Shown: positions 33,528 through 53,151 of the stretch, piece by piece
Layout: each line of letters opens with the position of its first letter
Numbering within the stretch: the stretch's first letter is position 1
Source: Terriglobia bacterium
Lineage (GTDB): Bacteria; Acidobacteriota; Terriglobia; Acidiferrales; UBA7541
DNA: 57,129 nt
Direction: 5' to 3'
Assembly (NCBI GenBank): GCA_020072805.1
Contig: JAIQGC010000060.1
Span: forward strand, 1-57,129
Made by a program: the position numbers and the translations under genes
Notes under the pieces: model-generated
What the model saw: only the letters and a program-made list of their open reading frames with translations
Told to the model about the DNA's origin: nothing
Database searches by the model: none

Positions 33528-33562
33528 AGCCGTAGGGGCACGGCATGCCGTGCCCCTACCGG
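33528..33562. repeat. REP-like palindrome upstream of terL
   Basis: ccgtaggggcacggca and tgccgtgcccctacc form a near-perfect inverted repeat in the spacer between the small membrane gene and terL. Confidence 0.75.
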
Positions 33563-33612
33563 ATGTGCAATCACGGGGCCCACGAATCAGGAACCGCGTC
33601 ACGACAAAAGCA

Positions 33613-35289
33613 ATGACGATGAGACGAAGCCGGGGATGGCCGGGGCGGGCGGCGGCGCGGGGAACGTCGCGGCTGCGGGTGAGCGAGCAGTACCGGCCGT
33701 TTGCGCGGCAGCGTGAGTTTCATGAATCGCCGGCGAAGTACCGTTTGTTTGGCGGGGCGGCGGGACCGGGAAAAACCAAGGCGCTGCTGTGGGAGGCGAT
33801 CCGGCAAGCCAACAACACGCCGGGGAGCGATACGCTGCTGTTGCGGCGGACCTATCCCGAGCTGGAGACATCGCTGCTGGCGTATTTCCGCCGGGACGTG
33901 CCGCGGGCGCTCTACCGCAGCTACAACGAATCGAAGCACGTGGTGACCTGGCACAACGGGTCCACCACGCGGTTCGGCTACTGCCGGAATGAGCATGACG
34001 TTTACCAGTATCAGGGCGCGGAGTTTTTGTTCATCGGCATTGACGAATTGACGCATTTCACTTTGAAGCAGTGGCAGTTTCTGACTTCGCGCAACCGCTG
34101 CCCCGTGCCGGGAAGTTTTCCGTGCATGGCTGGGGCCACGAATCCGGGAAACATCGGGCACGCCTGGGTGAAGGCGCTGTGGGTGGACCGCGTGCCGCCG
34201 CCGGGATTTGACCGCGTGGAGCTTTACGACGCGGCCGAGTACGAATTTATCCGCGCGCGGCTCGAGGACAATCCGGTTTACGCGAACGATGCGGGTTACC
34301 GCAAGACGCTCGAGGCGCTGCCGGAGCATTTGCGGCAGGCGTTTCTGGCGGGGGACTGGAACGTTTTCGCGGGGCAATATTTCGATGTGTTCGACGTGGG
34401 GCGGCACACGGCGCGGCCGGAAGAGTTGCGGCTGGAGGCGTGGTGGCCGCGGTGGATTTCGGTGGACTGGGGATTCCAGCATCCCAGCGCGGTGTATTGG
34501 CATTGCGCGGCGCCGGTTGAGGCCGTGACGCGTGATTCGTGGTTCGTAACTCGTGGAAGAGAGACCGACCGCGGCGGCAGTCACAACTCACCAGTCACAA
34601 GTCACCAGTCCCTTATCGTGACCTACCGCGAATTCGTGCAGAACGGCCTTTCGCCGCGCATGTTGGGCCAGGCCATCGCCGAGCGCAGCGGGCGGGAGCG
34701 TATCAGCGAGGTGTTTCTTTCGCCGGATGCGTTTGCGCACCGCACGGCGGAGGCATCCATCGCGGAGCAGTTGGGCGAAGTGCTGGCGGCCAACGGGCTG
34801 CCGCGGCCCGCGCCGGCGGATGACGACCGCGTGGGCGGGTGGCAGTGGATGTATCAGCTGCTGGAAAACGACGCCTGGGTGATCACGGAGAATTGCAGGA
34901 AGTTGATCGAATGTTTGCCGCTGCTGGTTCGTGACGAGCGGCGCGTCGAGGACATCCGCAAGGTGGATGGGGACGACGCGGCGGATGCGGCGCGGTATGG
35001 ATTGGTGTCCGGCGCGCGGATCGCTGGGCTGGCGAATGTGGCGCCGATGGGCGCATCCGCCGTAGGGGCACGGCATCCCGACAAGGTCGGGACAGGTGCC
35101 GTGCCCCTACGGGACGCGGGCGGACCAAGGTCCGCCCCTACATTCATTCACGGCATGCCGCTGGGGGAGCAGATCGAGCGGCAGGTGACGGCCGAAGACG
35201 CGACGTCGCGGGCGATTCATTTTCAGCGGCTGGAGGGCGAGGCGCGGCGGTTTTTTCGTCCGAAGGGATTGCCGCGGCGCCGGTGGTGA
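33613..35289 (+). CDS. terL: Phage terminase large subunit
   Basis: About 558 residues from ATG 33613. The ATPase domain has Walker A GGAAGPGKTKALL and Walker B FLFIGIDELTHF; the C-terminal RNase H-like nuclease begins WISVDWGFQHPSAVYWHC with the first catalytic Asp and continues EVFLSPDAFAHRTAEASI and VRDERRVEDIRKVDGDDAADAARYGL. Two stretches are foreign: about 30 codons made of GTGACT-type repeat (34526-34617, SHNSPVTSHQS) inside the nuclease, and about 30 codons of palindromic repeat (35060-35150) near the C-terminus. The frame survives both. Upstream codons from 33550 are repeat-derived. Confidence 0.9.
   Translation: MTMRRSRGWPGRAAARGTSRLRVSEQYRPFARQREFHESPAKYRLFGGAAGPGKTKALLWEAIRQANNTPGSDTLLLRRTYPELETSLLAYFRRDVPRALYRSYNESKHVVTWHNGSTTRFGYCRNEHDVYQYQGAEFLFIGIDELTHFTLKQWQFLTSRNRCPVPGSFPCMAGATNPGNIGHAWVKALWVDRVPPPGFDRVELYDAAEYEFIRARLEDNPVYANDAGYRKTLEALPEHLRQAFLAGDWNVFAGQYFDVFDVGRHTARPEELRLEAWWPRWISVDWGFQHPSAVYWHCAAPVEAVTRDSWFVTRGRETDRGGSHNSPVTSHQSLIVTYREFVQNGLSPRMLGQAIAERSGRERISEVFLSPDAFAHRTAEASIAEQLGEVLAANGLPRPAPADDDRVGGWQWMYQLLENDAWVITENCRKLIECLPLLVRDERRVEDIRKVDGDDAADAARYGLVSGARIAGLANVAPMGASAVGARHPDKVGTGAVPLRDAGGPRSAPTFIHGMPLGEQIERQVTAEDATSRAIHFQRLEGEARRFFRPKGLPRRRW
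34526..34617 (+). repeat. GTGACT/AGTCAC-type repeat inserted in terL
   Basis: Degenerate short units of the form (c)acgtgattcgtggttcgt and agtcaccagtcacaagtcac. Similar clusters occur at 36450-36486, 37963-37995, 43003-43035, 44818-44850 and 44893-44930. Here the repeat is read through in frame. Confidence 0.7.
35060..35150. repeat. REP-like palindromes inside terL
   Basis: cgtaggggcacggca with tgccgtgcccctacg flank a small ccgacaaggtcgg palindrome, then gggcggaccaaggtccgccc followed by ctacat. The first pair matches the copy at 33530-33560 just upstream of terL. Confidence 0.75.
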
Positions 35290-35583: not shown

Positions 35584-36357
35584 ATGATCAACGAAACGAA
35601 AATGAATGGCGGCGGAGCGATTGCGCCGGCGGATGGGAATGCGGCGCGGCGCGGCGAAGAGAAGAGCCGCCGCTCTAAAGAGGGCGGCTACAACGGGTGG
35701 AAGGCCGGCGTAGTAGAAATCATGGGACCGAATTTCGAGCGCTTAGAAGAGCTGCGCCCGGATTTGGTGAATGCACTGCGCGAATTGGTGCGCGGGTATC
35801 GGCAGGAAGGGGCCGTGGCGCGACGGCACGAGATCCGGCGGATTCGGCAGGCGCGTTTGTTCTGGCAGGGGCAGCAGTATGCGTGGTGGAATCCGGCAGA
35901 CATGAAGTGGCACGTGCCGTATGAGCAGAGGTCGGGCGACGGGCGGGACTTGGAGGAGATGCCGCGGTATCAGTTCGTGACCAATTTTTATCAGGGGTTC
36001 GGGCTGTCGTTCGTGGCGCTGCTTTCGCAGGACGTGCCCAGCGTGCGGTTTTATCCGCAGGCGGCGCAGTCCCTGGAAGATATTGCGGCGGCGCGCGCGG
36101 CGAGCGACGTGGCCCAGTTGATCGAGCAGAACAATCACGTCGAGCAGATGCTGACGCTGGTGGGCTATCACCTGTGGAATGACGGGAAGCTCGGCGGGTA
36201 TGTGCGGTATGTGGCGGACGGGCAGCGGTTCGGGTTTCACGACGAAGAGATTTTGGAGGCAGTGGAGATTCCGCTGGGCGAGGATGTGTGGGTGTGCCCT
36301 GGCTGCGGGAAGGAGGGAAGAATCGCCACAGAGGCACAGAGAGGGATTGGGGGATGA
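35584..36357 (+). pseudogene. Portal protein, N-terminal part (gene split)
   Basis: 257 residues. The region from MGPNFERLEELRPDLVNALR (ATG 35722) is portal-like (RIRQARLFWQGQQYAWWNP, YQFVTNFYQGFGLSFVALLSQDVPSV), resembling P22-type podovirus portals. The first 46 codons include a REP-like palindrome (35665-35697, RRSKEGGYN), so ATG 35722 may be the ancestral start. The frame ends in repeat sequence just after the first CxxC (VCPGCG) of a zinc ribbon; the rest continues in another frame at 36485-38878. Confidence 0.75.
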
Positions 36358-36486
36358 AGGGGAAGACCAAGGCCCGCCCTCTCCGGCTGCTGCCCGGAGT
36401 CTTGCGACTGAAGACGGCGGCTACAGCGCGGGTGGAGCGTCCGAGGGAGATTTCACGAGTCACGAGTCACCAGTCACGAGTCACTC
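36310..36486 (+). repeat. Cluster of three repeat types splitting the portal gene
   Basis: In order: a cgccacagaggcacagag unit (about 36325), a gcccgccctctccggctgctg...ggcggctacag palindromic unit (about 36372-36426), and a tcacgagtcacgagtcacca cluster (36451-36486). Together they separate the two CPGCG halves of one zinc ribbon, add a stop and shift the frame. Each type recurs elsewhere in the window. Confidence 0.75.
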
Positions 36487-38878
36487 TATTTGCCCGGGCT
36501 GCGGCGCGGAATTGAGCGAGGCAGACATGCGCCGGGCAGAACGGGTGACGGTGCCACGCGTGGCGGGTGTGCGGCGGACGGCGAATGGGCAGGAAGTGAT
36601 TTCGATTGTGGGAGGGTTGGAGCTGAACACGCCGGCGTGGGCCAACGAGATGCACGAATATCCGTACCTGCAATGGCAGGCGGAGGTGCACCGGGCGAAA
36701 TTGAAGGCGGCGTATCCGCACGCGGCGGAGCAGATTGAGTCGTCGCCAGCGCAGGGAGCGGAGGATGTGTATGCGCGCACTTCGCGGCTGAGCGTGGCGC
36801 AGGGATTTCCGGGGTTGCAGCCGGGGGACGCGCTGGTGAATCTGATTACGTTTGACCGCACGTGGATTCGTCCGTGGGCATTTTACGCGGTGGAGGACGA
36901 AGCGGTGCGCGCGGAACTGCTGCAACTCTTTCCCGACGGCTGCTACGTGGGGTTCGCGGGGGACGCTTATTGCGAGGCGCGCAGCGAGACGATGGACGAT
37001 CACTGGCGCGTGCTGCATGCGTTTCCGGGCGATGGGCAGGGGCGGCCCAGCGTGGGCGATTCGCTGGTGCAGGTGCAGGAGCGCTACAACGTGCTCTCGA
37101 ATATTCAGGCGGAGACGTATGAGTACGGCATTCCGCCGATTTACGCCGATCCGCAGGTGCTGGATTTCGACGCATTAGCAAACCAGGTGGCCGAGCCTTC
37201 CGCGCATTTTCCGGCGCGCGCGCGGCCGGGGCAGCCGCTGGCGGCGGGATTTTTTCAGCCCGCGCCGGCGCAGGTGCCGCGGGACATGCTGCTGCACCAG
37301 CAGGATTTGATCGGTCCGGTGGCGCAGTTTCTTACCGGACTTTTCCCGGCGGTGTTTGGCGGAAACATGGAGGACGTGAAGACGGCGTCGGGCTACGCGC
37401 TGGCACGGGACCAGGCCATGGGGCGGCTGGGGCTGGTGTGGCGGCGCACGAAACAGTTTTACGCGGAGATGATGCTGCTGGCGGTGGATTGCTTCCGGAA
37501 GAACCGTCCGGAGGACGCGGAGATTCCGCTGCTGGGGCCGGACGGGGTGTTCGATTCGCGGGCCATTCGCCTGGCAGAGTTGAAAGGCAACATCAGCGTG
37601 CACCCGGAGGCGGACGAGACGTTTCCGCGGATGAAGTCGCAGCAGCGCGGCGTGTTGCAGCAGTTGTTCGCGCTGAAGGATCCGTTGGTGCAGCGGGCGC
37701 TTGAGGAGCCGGCGAATATCGGGTACATCAAGAACGTGCTGGGGCTTTCGGAGCTGGTGGTGCCGGGCGAGGATGCGCGGAATAAGCAGTTGCGGGAGAT
37801 TCAGCAGTTGCTGGCGGGGGCGCCGATTGTGGTGGGGGCGCCGGAGAATGGCCGAAACGCGAAATACGAAATGCGAAATTCGGGGATGGGCGACGCGGCC
37901 GGGGTGGATGCGGCGGCGGGCGGGGCAAGCCCCGCCCCTACAACCGGAAGCGGGGCCGGGGTCTTCCACGAGTCACCTGTCACGAGTCACGCGTCGCTGC
38001 TGCTGCCGTCGGTGGCGGTGGATGAGTTGCTGGATGACCATGCTTCGGAATTCGAGGAGTGCAAGAGGTGGGCGAGTTCGGAGGCGGGGCAGGCGGCCAA
38101 GATGACCAATCCGGCGGGATTCGCGAATGTGCGGGCGCATGCGGAGGCGCATTTGCGAGCGATGATGTACGCGGCAGCCGCGCCAAATCCTGCTTCCCTG
38201 ATTCATGTGCCACGGGCGGCACGGAGTCCCCGAGTGAGTCCGCCGCCTCCGCCGAGCGAGTTACATACATCGAGCGAAATGATGGCATCGGTGACGTCCA
38301 GGGAATTTCTCCCGCACGGCGGCGAGGAGCGAGACGGCCCAGGCGACCACTGGGTCACCATCGATGGCAATCATGTGCTGCTCCACGAGCCCCAGGGAAG
38401 GGAAAATCAGCAAACTCCGCAAGGCCTTGTCGGTCAGATTCCAGCGGAGGTCAGGACAGAAATGGCGAGGGCCATACACGACAGCAATACTCCGACTGCG
38501 GATGATAAGAAGGGCGGATTTCACGAAGAATTCGGAGTGGCGGGTCTAAATGCATCCGGCAAATGGGTGGTGTCGCGCGATAAATCAGGCCCTTACGCTA
38601 ACCCGGATGTCGCCGACCATGTTTCACCGTCTGGTAAGCCCGTCGACCCAAACATAGCCTATTCAATCGTGGATCCGCGAGTGTTTTTCCATGTACATCC
38701 GGACGGTAAGACCGAGAAGCACAAGTGGAACCAGCCGCCTTCAGACATTGACAAAAAGGCGGCTATTCCGGGCCACATCAATATTGTGTTTGCGGCCCGT
38801 GAGAACAGGGTATACTTTTACGATCGTTCTGGAATCATCGGAAAGCCCATGAAACTGAAAGATTTCTTGAGGCCATGA
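36485..38878 (+). CDS. Portal protein C-terminal part fused to a JAMM/JAB-type toxin-like domain
   Basis: About 797 residues; the frame is open from 36179 but the first 100 codons shadow the N-terminal part or are repeat. From ICPGCGAELSEADM the portal continues through RYNVLSNIQAETYEYGIPPIYADPQ and DLIGPVAQFLTGLFPAVFGG to KRWASSEAGQAAKMTNPAGF. After a Pro linker comes DHWVTIDGNHVLLHEPQG (about 38342) and then a domain with E in GGFHEEFGVAG, HVHPDG at about 38690 and SDID at about 38748: E, HxHP and SxxD, the JAMM metalloprotease set, as in JAB-type polymorphic toxins. GC content drops from about 38440. A 1-nt gap separates the next gene. Confidence 0.75.
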   Translation, partial: SICPGCGAELSEADMRRAERVTVPRVAGVRRTANGQEVISIVGGLELNTPAWANEMHEYPYLQWQAEVHRAKLKAAYPHAAEQIESSPAQGAEDVYARTSRLSVAQGFPGLQPGDALVNLITFDRTWIRPWAFYAVEDEAVRAELLQLFPDGCYVGFAGDAYCEARSETMDDHWRVLHAFPGDGQGRPSVGDSLVQVQERYNVLSNIQAETYEYGIPPIYADPQVLDFDALANQVAEPSAHFPARARPGQPLAAGFFQPAPAQVPRDMLLHQQDLIGPVAQFLTGLFPAVFGGNMEDVKTASGYALARDQAMGRLGLVWRRTKQFYAEMMLLAVDCFRKNRPEDAEIPLLGPDGVFDSRAIRLAELKGNISVHPEADETFPRMKSQQRGVLQQLFALKDPLVQRALEEPANIGYIKNVLGLSELVVPGEDARNKQLREIQQLLAGAPIVVGAPENGRNAKYEMRNSGMGDAAGVDAAAGGASPAPTTGSGAGVFHESPVTSHASLLLPSVAVDELLDDHASEFEECKRWASSEAGQAAKMTNPAGFANVRAHAEAHLRAMMYAAAAPNPASLIHVPRAARSPRVSPPPPPSELHTSSEMMASVTSREFLPHGGEERDGPGDHWVTIDGNHVLLHEPQGRENQQTPQGLVGQIPAEVRTEMARAIHDSNTPTADDKKGGFHEEFGVAGLNASGKWVVSRDKSGPYANPDVADHVSPSGKPVDPNIAYSIVDPRVFFHVHPDGKTEKHKWNQPPSDIDKKAAIPGHINIVFAARENRVYFYDRSGIIGKPMKLKDFLRP
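37963..37995 (+). repeat. GTCACGAGTCAC cluster in the portal gene
   Basis: cacgagtcacctgtcacgag followed by tcacgc, read in frame as HESPVTSHAS in the C-terminal tail region of the portal. It directly follows a gggcaagccccgcccctacaa palindrome at about 37922. Confidence 0.65.
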
Positions 38879-38879
38879 C

Positions 38880-39353
38880 ATGAAGAACTTTGCGGGGATC
38901 GGAGCGATGGGAATGCTGTTGCTGTCGTTTCTCCCGCTGGCAGCGCCGCAAACCAGAGGGCCCCTGCCCAAGGTTGTGAGTGCCTCCGTACCCTTCTACC
39001 CGCCTCTTGCTCCCCCGACTCGCATTCAGGGAGTGGTTACACTGCAACTGTCCACCGATGGGAAACGCGTTTCGGCCATCGATGTCGAAAGCGGTCCGCC
39101 CATGCTGGCGCAGGCAGCGAAGGAAAATGTGAAAACGTGGGAGTTCGAGCCACACGCGCCGGCGAGTTTCAAGGTCACGTTCCACTACAAGCTGCTGCCG
39201 ACAATCTGCGATTCGCAATGCAACTGCGACAGCGAAGAAAAGGAATCGGTGGTGTTGCAACTGCCAGGTAAAGTCGAGGTAAGCGCGAAAGAATATACGA
39301 TTTGCGATCCCCGCGCACCAATAGCCGGCAGGAATCGATCCAAGCGAAAGTGA
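38880..39353 (+). CDS. Small exported TonB-C-like protein, possible immunity partner
   Basis: 157 residues. Signal peptide MKNFAGIGAMGMLLLSFLPLAAP; the mature part, VVSASVPFYPPLAPPTRIQGVVTLQLSTDGK...VKTWEFEPHAPASFKVTFHYKL, is a TonB C-terminal-type fold without a TM/Pro-rich energising arm. The tail has a Cys cluster (ICDSQCNCDSE). Its ATG lies 1 nt after the toxin-like gene's stop, and ggag/gagg in that gene's end can serve as ribosome-binding site, so the two are translationally coupled. A periplasmic immunity or adaptor role is inference from this arrangement only. Confidence 0.65.
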   Translation: MKNFAGIGAMGMLLLSFLPLAAPQTRGPLPKVVSASVPFYPPLAPPTRIQGVVTLQLSTDGKRVSAIDVESGPPMLAQAAKENVKTWEFEPHAPASFKVTFHYKLLPTICDSQCNCDSEEKESVVLQLPGKVEVSAKEYTICDPRAPIAGRNRSKRK

Positions 39354-39387
39354 CAAACGATGAGAGTAATGGCAGCGTTTACATTAG

Positions 39388-39576
39388 AAGTACAAGCGCT
39401 GGGCGGGTTCGGGGGCGGGGCAGGCGGCGAAGAGGACCAATCCGGCGGGGTTTGCCGATGTGCGGGTGCACGCGGAGGCGCATTTGCTGGCGGCCCAAGG
39501 GGCATTGCAAGTTTCCACCTTGCAGCGAGTTATGGCACTTACCTGTTCCAGAAATCTTAATCCAAGGTACTGTTGA
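39388..39576 (+). pseudogene. Orphan fragment of a portal C-terminus
   Basis: The frame after a stop at 39385 reads YKRWAGSGAGQAAKRTNPAG then FADVRVHAEAHLLAAQGALQ before running to TGA at 39574. It matches codon by codon the portal segment at 38062-38155 (KRWASSEAGQAAKMTNPAGF, ANVRAHAEAHL), with most differences silent or conservative. It has no start codon. It is best explained as the tail of a portal gene displaced when the JAMM cassette was acquired. Confidence 0.8.
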
Positions 39577-39617
39577 CGTTGAGAAGGACCTTTGGCAAGA
39601 TGACCAAGTGAGTCTGG

Positions 39618-39713
39618 CGGGGGCGAAGGGATTTGAACCCTCAGCCGCGTGGTGATGCACGCAGCCCCTCGGATTAACAGTCCGGGGCAGTTACCGGGTT
39701 GTGCCACGCCCCC
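39618..39713 (-). tRNA. tRNA with Asn anticodon (GUU) and a class II long variable arm
   Basis: 96 nt plus encoded CCA (39615-39617). Acceptor GGGGGCG/CGCCCCC (7 bp), T8 G9, D arm GCA-loop-TGC with GG in the loop, anticodon arm CCGGA-CTGTTAA-TCCGA (4 bp plus a C-A mismatch; anticodon GTT), a 26-nt variable region with an 8-bp stem GCTGCGTG/CACGCGGC around CATCAC, T arm GAGGG-TTCAAAT-CCCTT, discriminator G. Normal tRNA-Asn has a 5-nt variable loop. Long arms belong to Ser, Leu and Tyr tRNAs; with discriminator G the serine type is nearest. It is opposite in strand to the flanking phage genes. Confidence 0.85.
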
Positions 39714-39740
39714 GCTACTCTTTCATCAGTTCACCTCGAA

Positions 39741-39776
39741 CTTACATTTTTTGCTCCTCTGAATATACTGTCCTAA
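39741..39776 (+). promoter_or_regulatory. Candidate promoter and repeated element ahead of the scaffold gene
   Basis: CTTACA (39741-39746, 4 of 6 matches to a -35) and TATACT (39764-39769) with a 17-bp spacer. The same -10 hexamer is used at 31890. actgtcctaa follows at 39767-39776 and recurs at 39803-39812, a possible regulator or RNA-structure repeat in the leader. Confidence 0.5.
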
Positions 39777-39850
39777 GGGACTGTTGTGGTACGGGCGGAC
39801 AGACTGTCCTAAAGTTTTCCAATGTGAACATAGCTAGCGGAATCGAGAGT

Positions 39851-39877
39851 CCCGAGAAATTCGGGCTTTTTTTATTT
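39851..39877 (+). terminator. Leader terminator just before the scaffold gene
   Basis: cccga and tcggg pair around gaaat and are followed by ctttttttattt, ending 13 bp before the scaffold ATG. With the promoter at 39741 it gives a ~100-nt leader RNA, the second promoter-terminator arrangement in the phage module. Confidence 0.65.
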
Positions 39878-39890
39878 GGGGAGGTAAGGC

Positions 39891-41393
39891 ATGAATTCCC
39901 AAGGCGTACCGAAGGCAAGCGGCGGGAACGGGCCGGCGCGGGCGGAGGATGTGCTGTACGCGATGAGCGATGAGCAGATCCTGGGGATGGGGGAGGAAGT
40001 GGCGAGTGACGAGTGGCGAGTGGCGAGTGAGGAGGAGGCGCGGTTGCTGGAGGAGGCGGACTCGGCCGGCAAGGGCGGGGGGAGGGATTCCTTCCGACCA
40101 GGTCGGAATCTTCGATCGGCTGCGGCCGCTGGCGCGGCCTCCGCTCGGAATGACAATGTTTTGAATGGGGCAGACGGGAATAACGCCCTTGGAAATGGCG
40201 GAAAGCGGAATGAAGCGGCGGGGAATGCGGGTGCAGTGAAGAATTCCGCTGGTACGGATAGCGTGGAGCCGCCGGCGTGGCTCGTGCGGATGATGGAGGA
40301 TCCCCAGGCGGGCGGGGAGGCGCGAGATTTCTGGGAGGGAATCTTGCGGGCGCGGGCGGAGGGGGCGGCGTATCGCGCGGCGATTGCTTCGCCGGCGGAG
40401 GCGCGGGCGCTGAAGGAGTTGTATCCCGGCGGAGTGAGCGAGGCGCGGGCGGCGGCGGAGCGGGCGCGGCAGTTGGAAAGAATTGACCGGGCGTTTTTCG
40501 GGGCGGCGGGGATGCCGGCGGAGGAGTCGGCGGTGGCGCGGACGGAATTGGCGCAGACGATGATGCGGGAGGATCCGGCGGCGTTTCGGGAGATGGTGGC
40601 GGCGGGGGTGAAAATTCTTCAGGAGGCCACAGAGGCACAGAGGCACGGAGGAAGAGAGGGAGAAGGAGATGTAGCGCCACCCGGAATTTATCCCGACCGA
40701 GTCGGGAGGGTGGCATCCGCGGCGGGGAATGAAGGTGCGCCGAAAGATGCCGGGCTCCCGGCCAGGCCGGGACAAGTGCCGCCCGGCGCTACACAAGAGG
40801 ATCGATCCGCGCGGGCTGCGGAGGATAATGCGCAGTTGGCGGCGTATGGGGCGTTTGAGCGCGGCGCGAATGAGGAGTTGGAGCGCAGCGTGGGCGGGGC
40901 GATTGCGCGGACGCTGGAGATGGCTTTGCCGAATTTGCGCGCGGGCGACGCAGCGGGAAGCGCCGCGGGATTGCAGGGGCGGTTGGGGCCGATGATTCGC
41001 GCGGAAGTCGAGTCGGGGTTGAAGGGCGACCGGCAGCTAGGTGCGCAGGTGGAGCAAATTCTGGCTTCGCGGAGATTTGATGGGGCCGCGCGGGAACAGG
41101 TGGTGCGGCTGATTGGGGAGCGGGCGCGGCAGTTGGTGCCAGGGGCGGCGCGGCGAGTGCTGAATGAATGGACGCAGACGGCGTTAGCTGCGCGGCGGGG
41201 CCGGGCGGCGCAGGGAGAGAGTGCGGAGGGACGGGTGGACGCGGCGCGGGCGGCGGGGGGAAGAGAGAGTTCGCCGCAGCGCGCGATGGACAAAAGTTCG
41301 GAACGGGCTGGCGTGGCGCGGAATGACAGCGGCGGGCGAGCAGCGAGGATTGACTACCGGAAGATGAGCGACGAGCAGATTCTGGACTCCTAG
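39891..41393 (+). CDS. Scaffold-like capsid assembly protein
   Basis: 500 residues, strongly Ala/Glu/Arg/Gly-rich and helical, start after ggggaggtaaggc. It lies between portal and major capsid, the usual place for a scaffolding protein. The motif MSDEQIL occurs twice: near the N-terminus (DVLYAMSDEQILGMGEE) and as the very C-terminus (YRKMSDEQILDS). Inside are repeat-derived inserts: gtggcgagt units (about 40007-40034), a ccttccgaccaggtcggaat palindrome (40088), an acagaggcacag unit (40628-40660) and a cgggctcccggccaggcc palindrome (40747). The frame tolerates all of them, consistent with a disordered protein. Confidence 0.65.
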   Translation: MNSQGVPKASGGNGPARAEDVLYAMSDEQILGMGEEVASDEWRVASEEEARLLEEADSAGKGGGRDSFRPGRNLRSAAAAGAASARNDNVLNGADGNNALGNGGKRNEAAGNAGAVKNSAGTDSVEPPAWLVRMMEDPQAGGEARDFWEGILRARAEGAAYRAAIASPAEARALKELYPGGVSEARAAAERARQLERIDRAFFGAAGMPAEESAVARTELAQTMMREDPAAFREMVAAGVKILQEATEAQRHGGREGEGDVAPPGIYPDRVGRVASAAGNEGAPKDAGLPARPGQVPPGATQEDRSARAAEDNAQLAAYGAFERGANEELERSVGGAIARTLEMALPNLRAGDAAGSAAGLQGRLGPMIRAEVESGLKGDRQLGAQVEQILASRRFDGAAREQVVRLIGERARQLVPGAARRVLNEWTQTALAARRGRAAQGESAEGRVDAARAAGGRESSPQRAMDKSSERAGVARNDSGGRAARIDYRKMSDEQILDS

Positions 41394-41451
41394 GCAACGG
41401 GCGAGTGCTGAATCGGCGAGGAAGTATTTTTCCGGGTTGCGATTTTGTAGA

Positions 41452-41481
41452 GGCCAGGCTTCAGCCTGGCCTTTTGTTTTT
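41452..41481 (+). terminator. Strong intrinsic terminator upstream of the capsid gene
   Basis: ggccaggc-ttca-gcctggcc, a perfect 8-bp stem with a tetraloop, followed by ttttgttttt. It is the third terminator placed between late genes that must be expressed, suggesting attenuation, processing or antitermination. Confidence 0.85.
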
Positions 41482-41535
41482 GGCCCATGGAAGCCGGCGG
41501 GAAGTGGCGGGATAAGAAGAAAAAAAGAGAAGAAA

Positions 41536-41687
41536 GCCACAGAGACACAGAGTTCACAGAGAAAAGGCAGCAGGGAAGAGAGCGGGATGGCGCCGCGCAA
41601 GCAAGTCGCGAAGGGATGCGCTTCGCGGCGGCTTAGGCGCTGGCGCGCGTCCGCGTGCGCTTCGCCGTGCCTCTGTGTCTCTGCGGC
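41536..41687. repeat. 152-bp repeat with 17-bp inverted ends
   Basis: The left end gccacagagacacagag (41536-41552) is complementary to ctctgtgtctctgcggc (41671-41687) with one mismatch. Partial copies of the acagag-cacagag end lie at about 36325 and 40628. MITE-like in shape, with no coding potential of its own. Confidence 0.6.
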
Positions 41688-41731
41688 TCTCTTCGGTTTA
41701 AGAAGCGAAGCACTTTTAAGGAGAAAAACGA

Positions 41732-42988
41732 ATGCCAGCACAGACAAACGCGAATGTGGTCGCCCTGCAACTGGAGAAGGTGCGCGATAAGGTGCCCCTG
41801 CTCTACGAGCGCGACGACATTTTATTGACGATGATTCAGCAGCGCGGGGACGTGGAGAAGATTTCCAACCGCGCGATGCGCCTGCCGCTGCAGGTGAATC
41901 CCGGCGGCAAGGCGGGGAGTTACAACGCGGACGGCGGCGACCTGGGCCGCGGTTCGGGCACGCAGTACGACGTGGCCACGGTGTCGCCGATTTTTTTCCG
42001 CTTCGCCATTGAAATCACCAAGCTGGTGGAATACGCCACGGCGGGGCGGGCGCGCGCCGTGGAAAACGCGGCCAAGCGCGAAGTGGTCAACGGCATGAAG
42101 CAGTTTCGCTCGTTCCTGGACAAGCTGATGCAGACGGGCGGGAACGGCGTGCTGGGGACGGTGGGTTCGTTCGCCACGACCACCTGGACGATGTCCACGC
42201 CGCCGGGGGCCGCGCTGGTCTACGTCGGGCAGACCATTCAAGTTTACGACTCGACGCTGACCACCAACCGCGGCACGGCCAACGTGGTGGCGGCTGATCC
42301 CATCAGCGCCACGCAGACGATCACGGTGGATGCGAATCCGGGCGGACTGACGGCGGGCGACGTCATCGTACACGACGGGCTTTCCGGAGCGAGCCCCGTA
42401 TCTCTCTTCGGAATCAAATATCACCAAAACAACGCGACCACGGGAACGTGGCTGAACCTGAACCGCGCCAGCTATCCGGTGCAGCTGGCCACGCCGCGCG
42501 TGAATGCGGGCAACGCCGCGCTGACTCCGTCGGCGGTGCGCCTGGCCATCAACAAGGTGCGGAAAGCGCTGGGGATCAACCACGTGAGCAAGCTGATCGC
42601 CTACATGGCGGTCGAGCAGGAACACGCATGGGAAAACCTGGGGATCACCGTGAGCCAGATCATCAAGGAAGGTGGAGGCGCGGGCGGAAACGATCTGGAC
42701 CTGCTCTTCAGCGGGCGCAAAACCATGAGCGGAGTGCCCATCAAGTCCAGCGTGAATGCGGACCAGACGCGCGTGGACTTTCTGGACCTCTCGCACTGGG
42801 GACGCGCCGTGCTGAAGGACATTGACTTCTACGAGGTCAACGGCAACACGGTGTTTCCGATCTACGGAGCGAGCGGCGGTCTGGCGGCTTCGTATATTTT
42901 CTACTTCGACCTGGCCATGCAGGTGTTCAGCGATTCGCCGCGCAGCGGGGCGTACATTGATTCGCTGGCGCGGCCGACGGGCTACTAA
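41732..42988 (+). CDS. Phage major capsid protein (P22 coat-like)
   Basis: 418 residues, start MPAQTNANVVALQLEKVRDK after aaggagaaaaacg. It shows an N-arm, ISNRAMRLPLQVNPGGKAGS, then FAIEITKLVEYATAGRARAV and VNGMKQFRSFLDKLMQTGGNG (spine-helix-like), an inserted beta-rich region (about 145-235) and a C-terminal half with KVRKALGINHVSKLIAYM and GVPIKSSVNADQTRVDFLDL. Position, size and composition (balanced, high expression codons) fit a HK97-fold coat of P22 type with an insertion domain. Confidence 0.82.
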   Translation: MPAQTNANVVALQLEKVRDKVPLLYERDDILLTMIQQRGDVEKISNRAMRLPLQVNPGGKAGSYNADGGDLGRGSGTQYDVATVSPIFFRFAIEITKLVEYATAGRARAVENAAKREVVNGMKQFRSFLDKLMQTGGNGVLGTVGSFATTTWTMSTPPGAALVYVGQTIQVYDSTLTTNRGTANVVAADPISATQTITVDANPGGLTAGDVIVHDGLSGASPVSLFGIKYHQNNATTGTWLNLNRASYPVQLATPRVNAGNAALTPSAVRLAINKVRKALGINHVSKLIAYMAVEQEHAWENLGITVSQIIKEGGGAGGNDLDLLFSGRKTMSGVPIKSSVNADQTRVDFLDLSHWGRAVLKDIDFYEVNGNTVFPIYGASGGLAASYIFYFDLAMQVFSDSPRSGAYIDSLARPTGY

Positions 42989-44984: not shown

Positions 44985-45707
44985 ATGCCAGTCGTTGGAT
45001 CTTCGGCTTATAACACGGCAGGGCAGATCACCGCGCTGGTGCGGTCGCTGCTGAATGACGCGCAGGGCAATCTGTTCACGGATGCGGTGCTGCTGCCGTA
45101 CGCCAATGCGGCGTACCGCGGGGTGCAGCGGGCGCTGGCCAATGCGGGGGCGGGCGGGTTCATGACGGACAACGCGCTGCTGGTGGTCGCGGCGGTGAGC
45201 GCGGTGGACGCTTCGCTGCAAGTGGCGATCACGGATGCGACGGCGCCGCCCAATCAGCTGCCCACGGATCTTCTCGCGCCGCTGAAGTTGTGGGAGCGGC
45301 CCAGCGGCTCGGCGCAGGAGTTCGCGGAGATGGCCGACCTGACGCGGCACGGCGGCCTGCCTTCGCGGGAGCAGGGAGCTTCGCTGGACGCATGGGAATG
45401 GCGCGCGGACGGGCTGTATTTCATCGGGGCCACGCAGGACACACAGATTCGCCTGCGCTACATCAAATCCTATCCGGACTTGACGGACGCCAACTCGCCG
45501 GTGCTGGTGCGCCACGCGCAGGAAGCCATCGCCTTTGGAACGGCGGCGCTGGCGGGATGGGCGCGGGGTTCGCCGCTGGCGGAGAAATGGGACGGCGCGG
45601 CGCGGGACGCGATCGAGGACCTGGTGACCAGCGCGGTGCGGCGCGAGCAGCAGAGCGGGAGGCGGCGGCGGCCGTTTTCCTCGCGCAGCGGCTACGGAAC
45701 AATTTAG
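44985..45707 (+). CDS. Head-to-tail adaptor-like phage protein
   Basis: 240 residues, start MPVVGSSAYNTAGQITALVR after aaaggaaaaaac. Helical head region (LLPYANAAYRGVQRALANAG), a beta middle (WEWRADGLYFIGATQDTQIRLRYIKSYPDL) and a helical end (HAQEAIAFGTAALAGWARG, EDLVTSAVRREQQSGRR). This pattern is common in head-completion or adaptor proteins downstream of capsid genes. No firm family assignment. Confidence 0.65.
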   Translation: MPVVGSSAYNTAGQITALVRSLLNDAQGNLFTDAVLLPYANAAYRGVQRALANAGAGGFMTDNALLVVAAVSAVDASLQVAITDATAPPNQLPTDLLAPLKLWERPSGSAQEFAEMADLTRHGGLPSREQGASLDAWEWRADGLYFIGATQDTQIRLRYIKSYPDLTDANSPVLVRHAQEAIAFGTAALAGWARGSPLAEKWDGAARDAIEDLVTSAVRREQQSGRRRRPFSSRSGYGTI

Positions 45708-50202: not shown

Positions 50203-53151
50203 ATGACCACCGCGGGATCATTCGACGCACCGATTGAGATTTTCGGCGGGCTGGTGACGGATATGTCGCCGGCGGACCTGCCCCACGGGGTGTCGCCGGA
50301 CTGCCAGGACGTGGTGTTCAGCAGCGGCGGGGTAGCCACGCGGCCGGGATTGCAGGCGCTCTATGGTCCGCTGGCAAACAATCCCACGGTGAATTATTTA
50401 AAGACGTACGTGACGCCGGGCGGGACGGCGCGCGCGATGGTCTTCGACGGCAACGGCGTGCTCTACAAGGAGACCACGCCGGGCACGCTGGCCACGGTGA
50501 GCTCCGGGCTGGCGCAGAATGCGTTGGCCAATTCGGCCTCGGCGTTCGGGCGCGAGTATCTGGCCATCGGCGACGGGCGAGCCGGCAACGACGCGCCGCG
50601 GCAGTTCGACGACACGTACCTGGACCGCGTGAGCCAAGGCGGGCCGGGAGCTGCGCCCACCGTGGTGGATGAAAACGTGGTGGTGAGCGTGGCCGCCAGC
50701 CCCAGTGGGGCGACGCAGCCGGCGGCGGTGGCGATTGCGGCGGGACCAGGAGGAGCGACGGAGAACGGTTTCCTGGTGACGATCACCACTTCGGCGGCGC
50801 ACGGATTGTCCGCGGGACAGTCGATAACGATTGCGGGCGTGGGCGTGGCCGGATACAACGGAACGTTCGCGGTACTCTCCGTGCCGAACGGCACGCAATT
50901 CACTTACGTGGCGGGCTCATCGGGGCTGGCGGCTTCGGGCGGGGGCACAGCGGCATCGGCGACGGCGACGATCACGACTTCGGCGGCGCACGGATTTTCC
51001 GCGGGAGAAATGGTGACGCTGGCGGGTGTGGGCGTGGCCGGATACAACGGAACATTTGCGGTGACGGCGGTGCCAGACGCGACGCATTTTACGTTTACGG
51101 CGGCGAGCGGCGGGCTAGCGGCGTCCGGAGGCGGCACGGCCGCGGCGGCGGGCAATATCGCGGCGGGCGTGCACCAGGTGAGCGTGATTTTTCAAACGCG
51201 GCAGGGGTATCTGACCAAACCGGGCCCGGCGGCGAGCTGGACGGCGAGCGGGGGAAAGCGCGCGGTGGTGACCAACATCCCGACGGGGCCGGGAAACGTG
51301 GTGGCGCGGATTTTGTGCTTCACCGGAGCGGGCGGAGCGAGTTTTTTCACCGTGGGGAGCGGAGCGACTCTCTACAGCGGCAACATGATTCTGGGAGACA
51401 ACGCCACGACATCGACAGTGGTGGATTTTTCCGACGCCGTGCTGCTGGCGGGGACGAATGTGGACGCGCTGTTCCGGCTGGTGGAGCTGGGGGCCTGCGC
51501 GGGCGTGACCGACTACGCGCAGCGGCTGTTCTGGTGGGGCGAGCGCAACAAGATGAACAATTGGGTGAACCTGGGATTCGACGGCGGGTTCACCGGGCCG
51601 CTGCTGCCGCATTATCCGCTGGGATGGACGCCGGACGTGGTGTACGCGCCGGGAGGAACGGACGAGCAGAGTTTTACGGCGTGGGGCGCGGCGTATGCCA
51701 TCGTGGGGAATGGAACGACGGCGACGCGGGGGTTGATGACGCAGAGCGCGGTGCAGGACGCGCTGGGCGTGGCGCTGATCGTCGCGGGAACGGACTACAC
51801 GGTGCGGGCGCGCTGCGCGCGCAATGCGCTACTGGCGCAGGGGACGCTACACGTGCATCTCTACAGTGCCAGCGGCGGAATCAACACGGCGGGATTGCAG
51901 CTCACCGCGGCGCAACTGACCACCGGCCATGCGGAATACACAGCACAGCTGACCGGGCCGCTGGGGGCGATTCCCGCCGATCTCCTGCTGCGGGTGTACA
52001 CGGACGGTACGCCCACGCAGAACGGGCGCTTCTACATCGACAGCATCGAGATTTTCCCGACGCTGCAGCCGGTGAACGCGACGATGGTGCGCGCCAGCGG
52101 CGCGGAGAATCCGGAGAGCTACGACGGGATCAGCGGTTTCCTCAGCGTGGCGGAAAACGACGGGCAGGCGGTGCGCGCGGCGTTCAAGCTGCGCGAGCGG
52201 CTTTATTTCGTGAAGGAGCATTCGCTGCATGCCACGCAGGACGACGGGGTGAACGAGCCGGCGCTATGGTCGCTGACGGAGATTTCGCGCAAGGTGGGAA
52301 CGCCGTCGGTGCGGGGCGTGGCCGTGGGAGAGGATTGGGCGGTGATCGCGCATCGCACCGGGCTGTATCTGTTTTCGGGCGGCGAGCCGGTAAAGATTTC
52401 ACAGGAAGTGCAGCCGCTGTGGAACACCATCAACTGGCAGTACGGGCATACGCTGTGGACGGCGGTGGATACCAAGGAGCGGCGCATTCTGGTGGGAGCG
52501 CCGTTCGGCGCGGCCACTTCGCCGAACCGGGTGCTCATGCTGGATTTCCGCGACCTGGACGGCGCGGAGCAGATTGCCTCGCGCCCGCCGATCAATATCA
52601 CTTACGCCGGACGCAAGACGGCCGCCGACAAATCGCGCAAATGGTCGCCATGGAGCATCGCGGCGAACTGCTGTGCGGCGCTCGAGCGCACGGACGGAAC
52701 CGCGGCGGTGGCCTTCGGCGGCGGGATTCCCGGAGTGGGCGGCGGGGGAGCCACGGGAAAAGCGTACACGCTGAACGACGCGCAGCTTTCCGACGACGGC
52801 GCGGCGATTGCCAGCTACTACACGACGCACTATTTTCCGGAGCGCGCGGTGGAATTGCAACTGGACCTGGGAGCGCACCGCAAACTGTTTTCCTTTTTGA
52901 CGCTGTACACGGAAGGAGCGGGGACGCTGGCGTTGACGGCCTACGTGAACACCGCCAGCGCGGCGCAGGCGCAGCAGTCGCTGCCGCTGAGCACGCCGGG
53001 AATGAAGGACCTGGAGCTGCCGTTGAACGTGAGCGGTGAGCGAGTGGCTTTCCGCGTGGGAACCAGCGCGGCCGGGGCGTGGTTCCGATTGCAAAAGTTC
53101 ACGCCGTCGCTGCGACGCGACCCGTGGGCTCCGGTGCGGGGAGGGAATTAG
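50203..53151 (+). CDS. Large phage tail/DNA-stabilisation-like protein
   Basis: 982 residues, start after ggggaggaa. The start (IEIFGGLVTDMSPADLPHGV, SPDCQDVVFSSGGVATRPGL) and the later AQRLFWWGERNKMNNWVNLG, LFSGGEPVKISQEVQPLW segments have the feel of podovirus tail-hub/gp10-like stabilisation proteins, which use a propeller-like fold. A 63-residue domain (TTSAAHGxSAG...GTFAV...TFTA) is repeated in tandem at about 50780-51160. No enzymatic motif seen. Confidence 0.65.
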   Translation: MTTAGSFDAPIEIFGGLVTDMSPADLPHGVSPDCQDVVFSSGGVATRPGLQALYGPLANNPTVNYLKTYVTPGGTARAMVFDGNGVLYKETTPGTLATVSSGLAQNALANSASAFGREYLAIGDGRAGNDAPRQFDDTYLDRVSQGGPGAAPTVVDENVVVSVAASPSGATQPAAVAIAAGPGGATENGFLVTITTSAAHGLSAGQSITIAGVGVAGYNGTFAVLSVPNGTQFTYVAGSSGLAASGGGTAASATATITTSAAHGFSAGEMVTLAGVGVAGYNGTFAVTAVPDATHFTFTAASGGLAASGGGTAAAAGNIAAGVHQVSVIFQTRQGYLTKPGPAASWTASGGKRAVVTNIPTGPGNVVARILCFTGAGGASFFTVGSGATLYSGNMILGDNATTSTVVDFSDAVLLAGTNVDALFRLVELGACAGVTDYAQRLFWWGERNKMNNWVNLGFDGGFTGPLLPHYPLGWTPDVVYAPGGTDEQSFTAWGAAYAIVGNGTTATRGLMTQSAVQDALGVALIVAGTDYTVRARCARNALLAQGTLHVHLYSASGGINTAGLQLTAAQLTTGHAEYTAQLTGPLGAIPADLLLRVYTDGTPTQNGRFYIDSIEIFPTLQPVNATMVRASGAENPESYDGISGFLSVAENDGQAVRAAFKLRERLYFVKEHSLHATQDDGVNEPALWSLTEISRKVGTPSVRGVAVGEDWAVIAHRTGLYLFSGGEPVKISQEVQPLWNTINWQYGHTLWTAVDTKERRILVGAPFGAATSPNRVLMLDFRDLDGAEQIASRPPINITYAGRKTAADKSRKWSPWSIAANCCAALERTDGTAAVAFGGGIPGVGGGGATGKAYTLNDAQLSDDGAAIASYYTTHYFPERAVELQLDLGAHRKLFSFLTLYTEGAGTLALTAYVNTASAAQAQQSLPLSTPGMKDLELPLNVSGERVAFRVGTSAAGAWFRLQKFTPSLRRDPWAPVRGGN
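50791..51160 (+). repeat. 189-bp in-frame tandem domain repeat
   Basis: tcggcggcgcacggatt occurs at 50791 and again at 50980, exactly 189 bp (63 codons) apart, with extended similarity on both sides. It encodes two Ig-like modules. A third, diverged module is in the tail fibre gene near 47125-47255. Confidence 0.8.

Follow-up and report, generated by a model that had tools for sequence, protein, structure and literature searches.

A predicted tRNA gene that combines the asparagine anticodon GUU with a long variable arm lies in a virion module of an acidobacterial genome, and long-arm tRNA-Asn genes of this kind are, by their predicted folds, widespread in phages. We tentatively favour, at somewhat less than even confidence, the explanation that this tRNA is an accessory adaptor for asparagine codons, carried as cargo of a prophage module and charged mainly by AsnRS. 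In bacteria, a long variable arm is the mark of tRNA-Ser, tRNA-Leu, tRNA-Tyr and tRNA-Sec. The body of the present tRNA leans weakly, and not decisively, towards serine, and a missense role is weighed below.

The tRNA gene and its predicted fold

ARAGORN calls a tRNA-Asn(gtt) of 99 nt as the sole tRNA in the window, i.e. the whole stretch of 57,129 nt analysed here (Table 1). The Rfam model RF00005 matches positions 39618-39713 at 47.7 bits (E-value 3.7e-7; gathering score 29), and by its bit score the gene ranks 45th among the 46 matches in its own genome. The acceptor stem has 7 bp, beginning with G1-C72 and G2-C71, and is followed by U8; the T stem has 5 bp, including one G-U pair, and closes the T loop TTCAAAT. 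The acceptor and T arms are thus of the 7/5 type, and an eighth acceptor pair would be U8.U65. The D stem is reduced to 3 bp (G10-C25, C11-G24 and A12-U23) with C.C at 13-22, and the D loop contains GG. The anticodon stem consists of 4 bp in addition to a C27.A43 mismatch, with the loop CUGUUAA. A 4-bp anticodon stem is not rare; it occurs in 14.9% of bacterial tRNA-Asn(GUU) (excerpt of PMC13092985).

The final U of the variable region could pair with A15. If a G.U pair with this last base is allowed instead, the variable stem grows to 9 bp. Shuffling the 26 nucleotides gave 8 bp in 421 and 9 bp in 130 of 20000 cases, and the arm is therefore beyond chance. The minimum-energy fold of the whole tRNA (-45.5 kcal/mol, z -2.03) keeps the acceptor, T and long variable arms, yet lengthens the anticodon stem around a bulged A at the cost of the D stem; this predicted loss is a point against clean folding. 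An earlier sequence-only reading had described a tRNA with all parts, the GUU anticodon, G73 and an encoded CCA, a 26-nt variable region with an 8-bp stem, and three extra unpaired Gs ahead of that stem. ARAGORN, RF00005 and the sequence confirm each of these features, and no more favourable structure with a variable loop of ordinary size, which would have spoken against that reading, emerged. No promoter-like site was found for the strand of the tRNA.

Table 1. Positions of the tRNA, its parts and the neighbouring genes in the window
Feature	Position	Strand	Evidence
Terminase large subunit	33550..35289	+	phrog_979, E 2.3e-39; matches in 21/61 genomes, own included, some weak
899-aa conserved protein, between terminase and head genes	36179..38878	+	tblastn matches in 18/19 related loci
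Stretch of the 899-aa gene, repeated at 39386-39492	38055..38161	+	Direct repeat, 85% identity
Cargo gene with TonB C-terminal domain (TonB_C)	38880..39353	+	PF03544, E 8.2e-07
Partial second copy of the 899-aa gene stretch, between TonB_C gene and tRNA	39386..39492	+	Direct repeat; same stretch matched in related loci
Entire tRNA gene with GUU anticodon and long variable arm	39615..39713	-	ARAGORN; RF00005, 47.7 bits over 39618-39713
Discriminator G73 and encoded CCA	39615..39618	-	Sequence
T arm and 3' strand of acceptor stem	39619..39642	-	Sequence
Variable region of 26 nt (GGG, then an 8-bp stem closed by a 6-nt loop, then U)	39643..39668	-	Sequence; shuffle test; minimum-energy fold
Anticodon GUU	39676..39678	-	ARAGORN, anticodon at position 36
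500-aa protein after cargo gap in related modules	39891..41393	+	tblastn, 34-49% identity in 12/19 related loci
Major head protein	41732..42988	+	phrog_14242, E 1.8e-05; 53-92% identity in 13/19 related loci
SU10-type adaptor	44985-45707		
Protein with tail-fibre and structural matches	50203-53151		

The virion module and the host genome

The tRNA is surrounded by terminase and head genes, which bears out the phage association proposed earlier, and by its gene content the module is prophage-like. Its relatives comprise 19 loci, of which 14 are stretches from terminase-matching genomes and five are viral contigs, several of the loci being contig fragments. The 899-aa protein has no Pfam or PHROG match and, by its position, is probably the portal. 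The gap from the 899-aa gene to the 500-aa gene spans 366 to 1511 nt in the 12 loci where both are present; in locus L174, where the 500-aa gene is unmatched, 1750 nt separate the 899-aa gene from the head gene. The gap of the window holds the TonB_C gene, the partial copy of the 899-aa gene and the tRNA, that of L420 a gene on the minus strand that shows, by eye, the Fic-protein motif HPFxDGNGR, and that of L411 a different gene on the same strand as the virion genes. As its content differs between relatives, we infer that the gap is a cargo site. ARAGORN found no tRNA in the corresponding gap of 13 related loci, namely the 12 above and L174.

The two copies of the 107-nt direct repeat flank the TonB_C cargo gene on both sides, and the cargo gene of L420 is likewise surrounded by a partial duplication. 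Elsewhere in related modules, a tRNA-Asp(GUC) is also encoded against the direction of the virion genes (L173:11039-11113 and L419:8870-8941). The idea that the tRNA marks an attachment site was dropped: elsewhere in the genome its 3' end (39619..39642) matches three places, with three mismatches each. In the same genome, three nearby tRNA-Ala-like 3' ends (C8:1104-1127, 1172-1195 and 1476-1499), the first of them inside a tRNA-Ala(GGC) gene, possibly mark repeated integration.

The host genome (3.98 Mb, 99.77% complete, phylum Acidobacteriota) has two other GUU tRNAs among its 46 RF00005 matches, both with a short arm. One of them (L023:1501-1576; C92:15316 in the host itself) is matched in full or nearly so in 35 of the 36 genomes of the genus and by short pieces in the last, and its anticodon is GUU in all nine other genomes checked. 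By eye, the body of this short-arm tRNA resembles tRNA-Gln. With two other GUU tRNAs in the host, one of them near-universal in the genus, the window tRNA is dispensable for decoding AAU and AAC. The host encodes AsnRS (455 bits, cut-off 343) as well as GatA.

The host carries a further long-arm tRNA, with anticodon UAU and G73 (L574:5009-5098, minus strand; C140:18008-18097), with an IS1595-type transposase roughly 1 kb away. Relatives of this UAU tRNA, at 74-77% identity and all with UAU, are present in three other genomes of the 36 in the genus. One of them (L561/L581) has an IS1595-type transposase about 140 bp away; none was found by the other two, whose tRNAs sit at contig ends. Shared descent of the window tRNA with the host UAU tRNA was not adopted, as the T loop differs by eye.

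Long-arm GUU tRNAs in phages and bacteria

A class II pattern ending in GCCA, which leaves out tRNAs without an encoded CCA, was searched in viral contigs. Among the matches listed, 117 of 120 were called tRNA-Asn(gtt) by ARAGORN, with lengths of 82-99 nt and 111 distinct sequences. In a viral scan that was not selected for the arm, long-arm forms made up at most about 9 of the 120 matches listed: 112 were new loci with one clear long arm (L265) and one odd case (L275), and eight were known loci, of which L052-L055 are class II. The long-arm gene of Aeromonas phage 44RR2.8t recurs in 10 Aeromonas records at at least 99% identity. An 83-nt long-arm gene has 288 records, 287 of them covering at least 80%; the 30 listed come mostly from Salmonella and Escherichia phages with genomes of roughly 104-121 kb, which, judging by that size, are probably T5-like. 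The tRNA-Asn of T5 itself had been expected to be long-armed, but was found to be 78 nt long with a short arm.

The variable regions of phage long-arm GUU tRNAs (n=102) range from 12 to 27 nt, with 72 at 13-17 nt; at 26 nt, the window tRNA exceeds nearly all of them. U1-A72 together with G73 occurs in 99 of 112 long-arm versus 101 of 119 short-arm phage GUU tRNAs, whereas G1-C72, as in the window tRNA, is a minority state in both (13/112 and 15/119). At bases 39-41, long- and short-arm tRNAs show no clear difference. This census does not support the view that a GUU anticodon with a long arm is a singular combination. In the search for homologues that the sequence-only reading called for, no DNA match to the tRNA was found in 60 relatives, and no close DNA homologs of window positions 37000-42000 in the phage collection; phage long-arm GUU tRNAs of the same general type are many.

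Other phage tRNAs also carry long arms. The tRNA-Ile(UAU) is often long-armed (11/14 and 10/19 in two locus sets, e.g. L355:3686-3779, L367:1797-1888 and L388:5440-5531), and AGATTA recurs in its variable arm in four of six examined. Long-arm tRNA-Lys (L060, L105, L107) and tRNA-Thr(UGU) (L069, L153) amount to 22 distinct cases, 19 of them in loci selected for long-arm tRNA-Asn. Among the papers listed by our searches of the open-licence literature, none describes long-arm tRNA-Asn; variable-arm terms do not occur in PMC10264068, and the word 'variable' is absent from PMC12409363.

In bacterial genomes, a looser class II GUU pattern matched five of 396 genomes of the phylum, with an ARAGORN tRNA at the match only in the window and in L049. 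The latter locus (L049:1-2100), from another acidobacterial genome, holds 13 ARAGORN tRNA genes in about 2 kb, one of them a long-arm GUU tRNA. Of the 116 stretches listed in a genome scan, 55 coincide with an ARAGORN tRNA longer than 80 nt. Those from archaea, many of them resembling tRNAs with introns, were excluded from the tally. Among the matches listed, the remaining 30 bacterial GUU tRNAs comprise 22 in loci with at least seven tRNAs and eight in loci with one or two, although one of these eight (L479) looks like a miscalled tRNA-Asp. In an alphaproteobacterial MAG, a class II (D, K, N) tRNA-synthetase gene is found roughly 0.6 kb away from a long-arm GUU tRNA (L520:288-378).

The best-scoring bacterial match to the window tRNA among 3167 distinct ARAGORN calls is that of the Sphingomonadaceae MAG L505, with 70 identities over 100 columns; the archaeal L526 ties with it in score at 67 identities over 100 columns. 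The L505 tRNA shares G1-C72 and G73 with the window tRNA, but adjoins an IS1595-type transposase. Solitary or degenerate long-arm GUU tRNAs lie at three loci of alphaproteobacterial MAGs with such transposases (L505:3688-3779, L493:7902-7989 and L518:5865-5921). Transposase neighbours were counted at 2 of 7 solitary loci versus 1 of 109 (Fisher, p 0.009), in a set picked by eye on which we do not rely. A transposon origin of the window tRNA was not adopted, as the window has no IS1595-type transposase match.

Among known systems, the phage long-arm tRNA-Asn (Aeromonas phages 44RR2.8t and 31, Proteus phage PM135) share GUU, G73, CCA and the long arm with the window tRNA. They also occur in Salmonella and Escherichia phages, such as the E. 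coli K-12 phage GreteKellenberger (MZ501072), and in the records listed they are mostly annotated as tRNA-Asn. Most of those sampled have U1-A72 and an Asn-type body, whereas the window tRNA has G1-C72, a Ser-leaning body and a longer arm, and no further tRNA accompanies it in the window. Compared to the host tRNA-Ser, it has in common G1-C72, G73, the long arm and no more than a single unpaired base ahead of the T stem, but differs in its 26-nt variable region (18-22 nt in host tRNA-Ser), the three unpaired Gs before the arm and the anticodon GUU. The allo-tRNAs of Acidobacteria and others (Mukai et al. 2017, via an excerpt of PMC7609411) resemble it in the long arm, the SerRS features and a non-Ser anticodon, and come from the same phylum. 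They are defined by 8/4 or 9/3 acceptor/T arms (excerpt of PMC7609411), in contrast to the 7/5 arms of the window tRNA, and an 8/4 assignment was rejected, as the eighth acceptor pair is absent by sequence. Altogether, the window tRNA would work most closely like an allo-tRNA or a phage long-arm tRNA-Asn, with arms that fall outside the allo-tRNA definition.

Amino-acid identity and possible roles

Bacterial Asn identity resides in the anticodon and G73, which can be transplanted into tRNA-Lys, and U1-A72 is needed for the amidotransferase route, as given in an excerpt of PMC9976931. The same excerpt describes Ser identity as the long arm and G73, independent of the anticodon, with G1-C72 and G2-C71 among its features, and C2-G71 as blocking SerRS in E. 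coli tRNA-Leu. From the Asn set, the window tRNA has GUU and G73, whereas the short variable loop and U1-A72 are absent, G1-C72 taking the place of the latter. From the Ser set, it has the long arm, G73, G1-C72 and G2-C71, and only the Ser anticodon is absent; it does not carry C2-G71. Moreover, its C11-G24 pair is a Ser feature. The compatibility with both enzymes that the sequence-only reading had proposed holds on paper, with the long arm and G73 for SerRS, and GUU and G73 for AsnRS.

The tRNA body was compared to isotype classes by a naive Bayes profile that ignores the anticodon and whose training set was confined to viral and host tRNAs; training dropped long-arm isotypes other than Ser, Leu, Tyr, Asn and Ile(UAU), as well as short-arm Ser, Leu and Tyr. 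In leave-one-out runs, the four-class profile recovered 133 of 136 Ser, 102 of 103 Leu, 65 of 67 Tyr and 105 of 111 long-arm Asn tRNAs. Among these class II classes, the window tRNA scored as Ser first, followed by Tyr (-3.3 nats), long-arm Asn (-4.2) and Leu (-10.3), and Ser exceeded short-arm Asn by 9.8 nats. Among all isotypes, Lys came first with Ser 2.2 nats behind, and with position 73 left out, Tyr came first with Ser at -1.4 nats. By the same kind of profile, 104 of 111 phage long-arm GUU tRNAs grouped with short-arm Asn; the window tRNA is an outlier among phage long-arm tRNA-Asn. Most of the phage long-arm GUU tRNAs sampled have Asn-type bodies and acceptor ends, which suggests that the arm by itself is no sign of Ser. 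The earlier suggestion of serine charging may still apply to this particular gene, the body of which leans towards Ser.

In the explanation that we favour, the prophage-like virion module would carry the accessory tRNA gene as cargo, and the tRNA, once transcribed and trimmed, would act as a cloverleaf adaptor reading the asparagine codons AAU and AAC. The host AsnRS would charge it mainly with asparagine through GUU and G73, as this pair is the established Asn identity in bacteria and Asn-type phage tRNAs evidently tolerate a long arm. Because the body leans towards Ser, some secondary charging by SerRS would also be expected. A more speculative benefit might be to supply the phage with one more Asn adaptor, a divergent one that escapes recognition by host defences that cut tRNAs. 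The minority state G1-C72, the Ser-leaning body, the 26-nt arm, the loss of the D stem in the predicted fold and the lack of a promoter-like site all point against this explanation.

A less probable reading, though one that merits attention, is that the tRNA is a 7/5 counterpart of the allo-tRNAs, with a Ser-type body charged by SerRS, and inserts serine at some asparagine codons; such a missense role is plausible. Its long arm, G73, G1-C72, G2-C71 and C11-G24, free of the blocking C2-G71, and its first rank as Ser among the class II classes are in line with this, and Ser-charged tRNAs with other anticodons have been reported from Acidobacteria, the phylum of the host (excerpt of PMC7609411). 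By contrast, the window tRNA fully satisfies the AsnRS set, Ser yields the first rank to Lys among all isotypes and to Tyr without position 73, and the arms are 7/5 rather than 8/4 or 9/3. In addition, the UAU group of allo-tRNAs proved unusable for translation in E. coli (excerpt of PMC7609411), and efficient insertion of serine at asparagine codons should be costly. We consider it rather unlikely that a Ser-charged 7/5 allo-tRNA of the prophage acts as a missense suppressor, such that lysogens or infected cells would carry serine in part for asparagine, in a host with a second mobile-looking long-arm tRNA of non-Ser anticodon.

It is unlikely as well that the gene is decayed or non-translational, either a tRNA relic of a mobile element or a processed RNA that no longer decodes. 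This would fit the next-to-last rank of its RF00005 score in the genome, the C27.A43 and C13.C22 mismatches, the competing extension of the anticodon stem, the lack of a close relative to show selection and the lack of a promoter-like site on the tRNA strand. However, the acceptor and T stems are fully paired with a single G-U, CCA is encoded, the core tRNA bases are present by eye, the RF00005 score lies well over the gathering cut-off, and the short anticodon stem also occurs in 14.9% of bacterial tRNA-Asn(GUU) (excerpt of PMC13092985).

We regard as improbable, though compatible with the favoured Asn adaptor, a role of the long arm as a steric shield against anticodon-stem nucleases such as AriB, whose cut at 40/41 lies near the arm; phages would place the arm on tRNAs whose host counterparts these nucleases attack. 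The targets of AriB, the PARIS nuclease, are the Lys(UUU), Thr(UGU) and Asn(GUU) tRNAs, which it cleaves at 40|41, and the tRNA-Asn, tRNA-Lys and tRNA-Thr of T5 together rescue cells from this nuclease (excerpt of PMC12409363). We compared arm lengths by Fisher tests, with only identical sequences removed and Leu, Ser, Tyr and Asn left out. In loci selected for long-arm tRNA-Asn, other U36 tRNAs were long-armed in 31 of 300 cases (11 of them Ile(UAU)) versus 15 of 584 among the rest (p 3e-6), and Lys(UUU) plus Thr(UGU) in 14 of 84 versus 21 of 786 (p 9e-7), with Ile(UAU) left out too. In loci not so selected, however, Lys(UUU) plus Thr(UGU) gave 2 of 75 versus 9 of 587 (p 0.36), and the U36 excess of 15 of 273 versus 6 of 408 (p 0.005) was mostly Ile(UAU) (10/15); one unselected viral scan alone gave p 0.07 for U36 and 0.47 for Lys plus Thr. 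Furthermore, the rows are phylogenetically non-independent, the T5 tRNA-Asn tested against PARIS is short-armed, and bases 39-41 are alike in both forms. No DUF4435 (AriB-type) match was found in the 36 genomes of the genus, which argues against PARIS in the host, and an anti-defence role of the window tRNA could be proposed by analogy only.

If the tRNA is charged with asparagine, as in the favoured explanation, a long arm that marks other tRNAs would be widespread on phage tRNA-Asn, and both the tolerance of AsnRS for the arm and the purpose of the arm become testable. If it is charged with serine, a phage element would recode asparagine codons.
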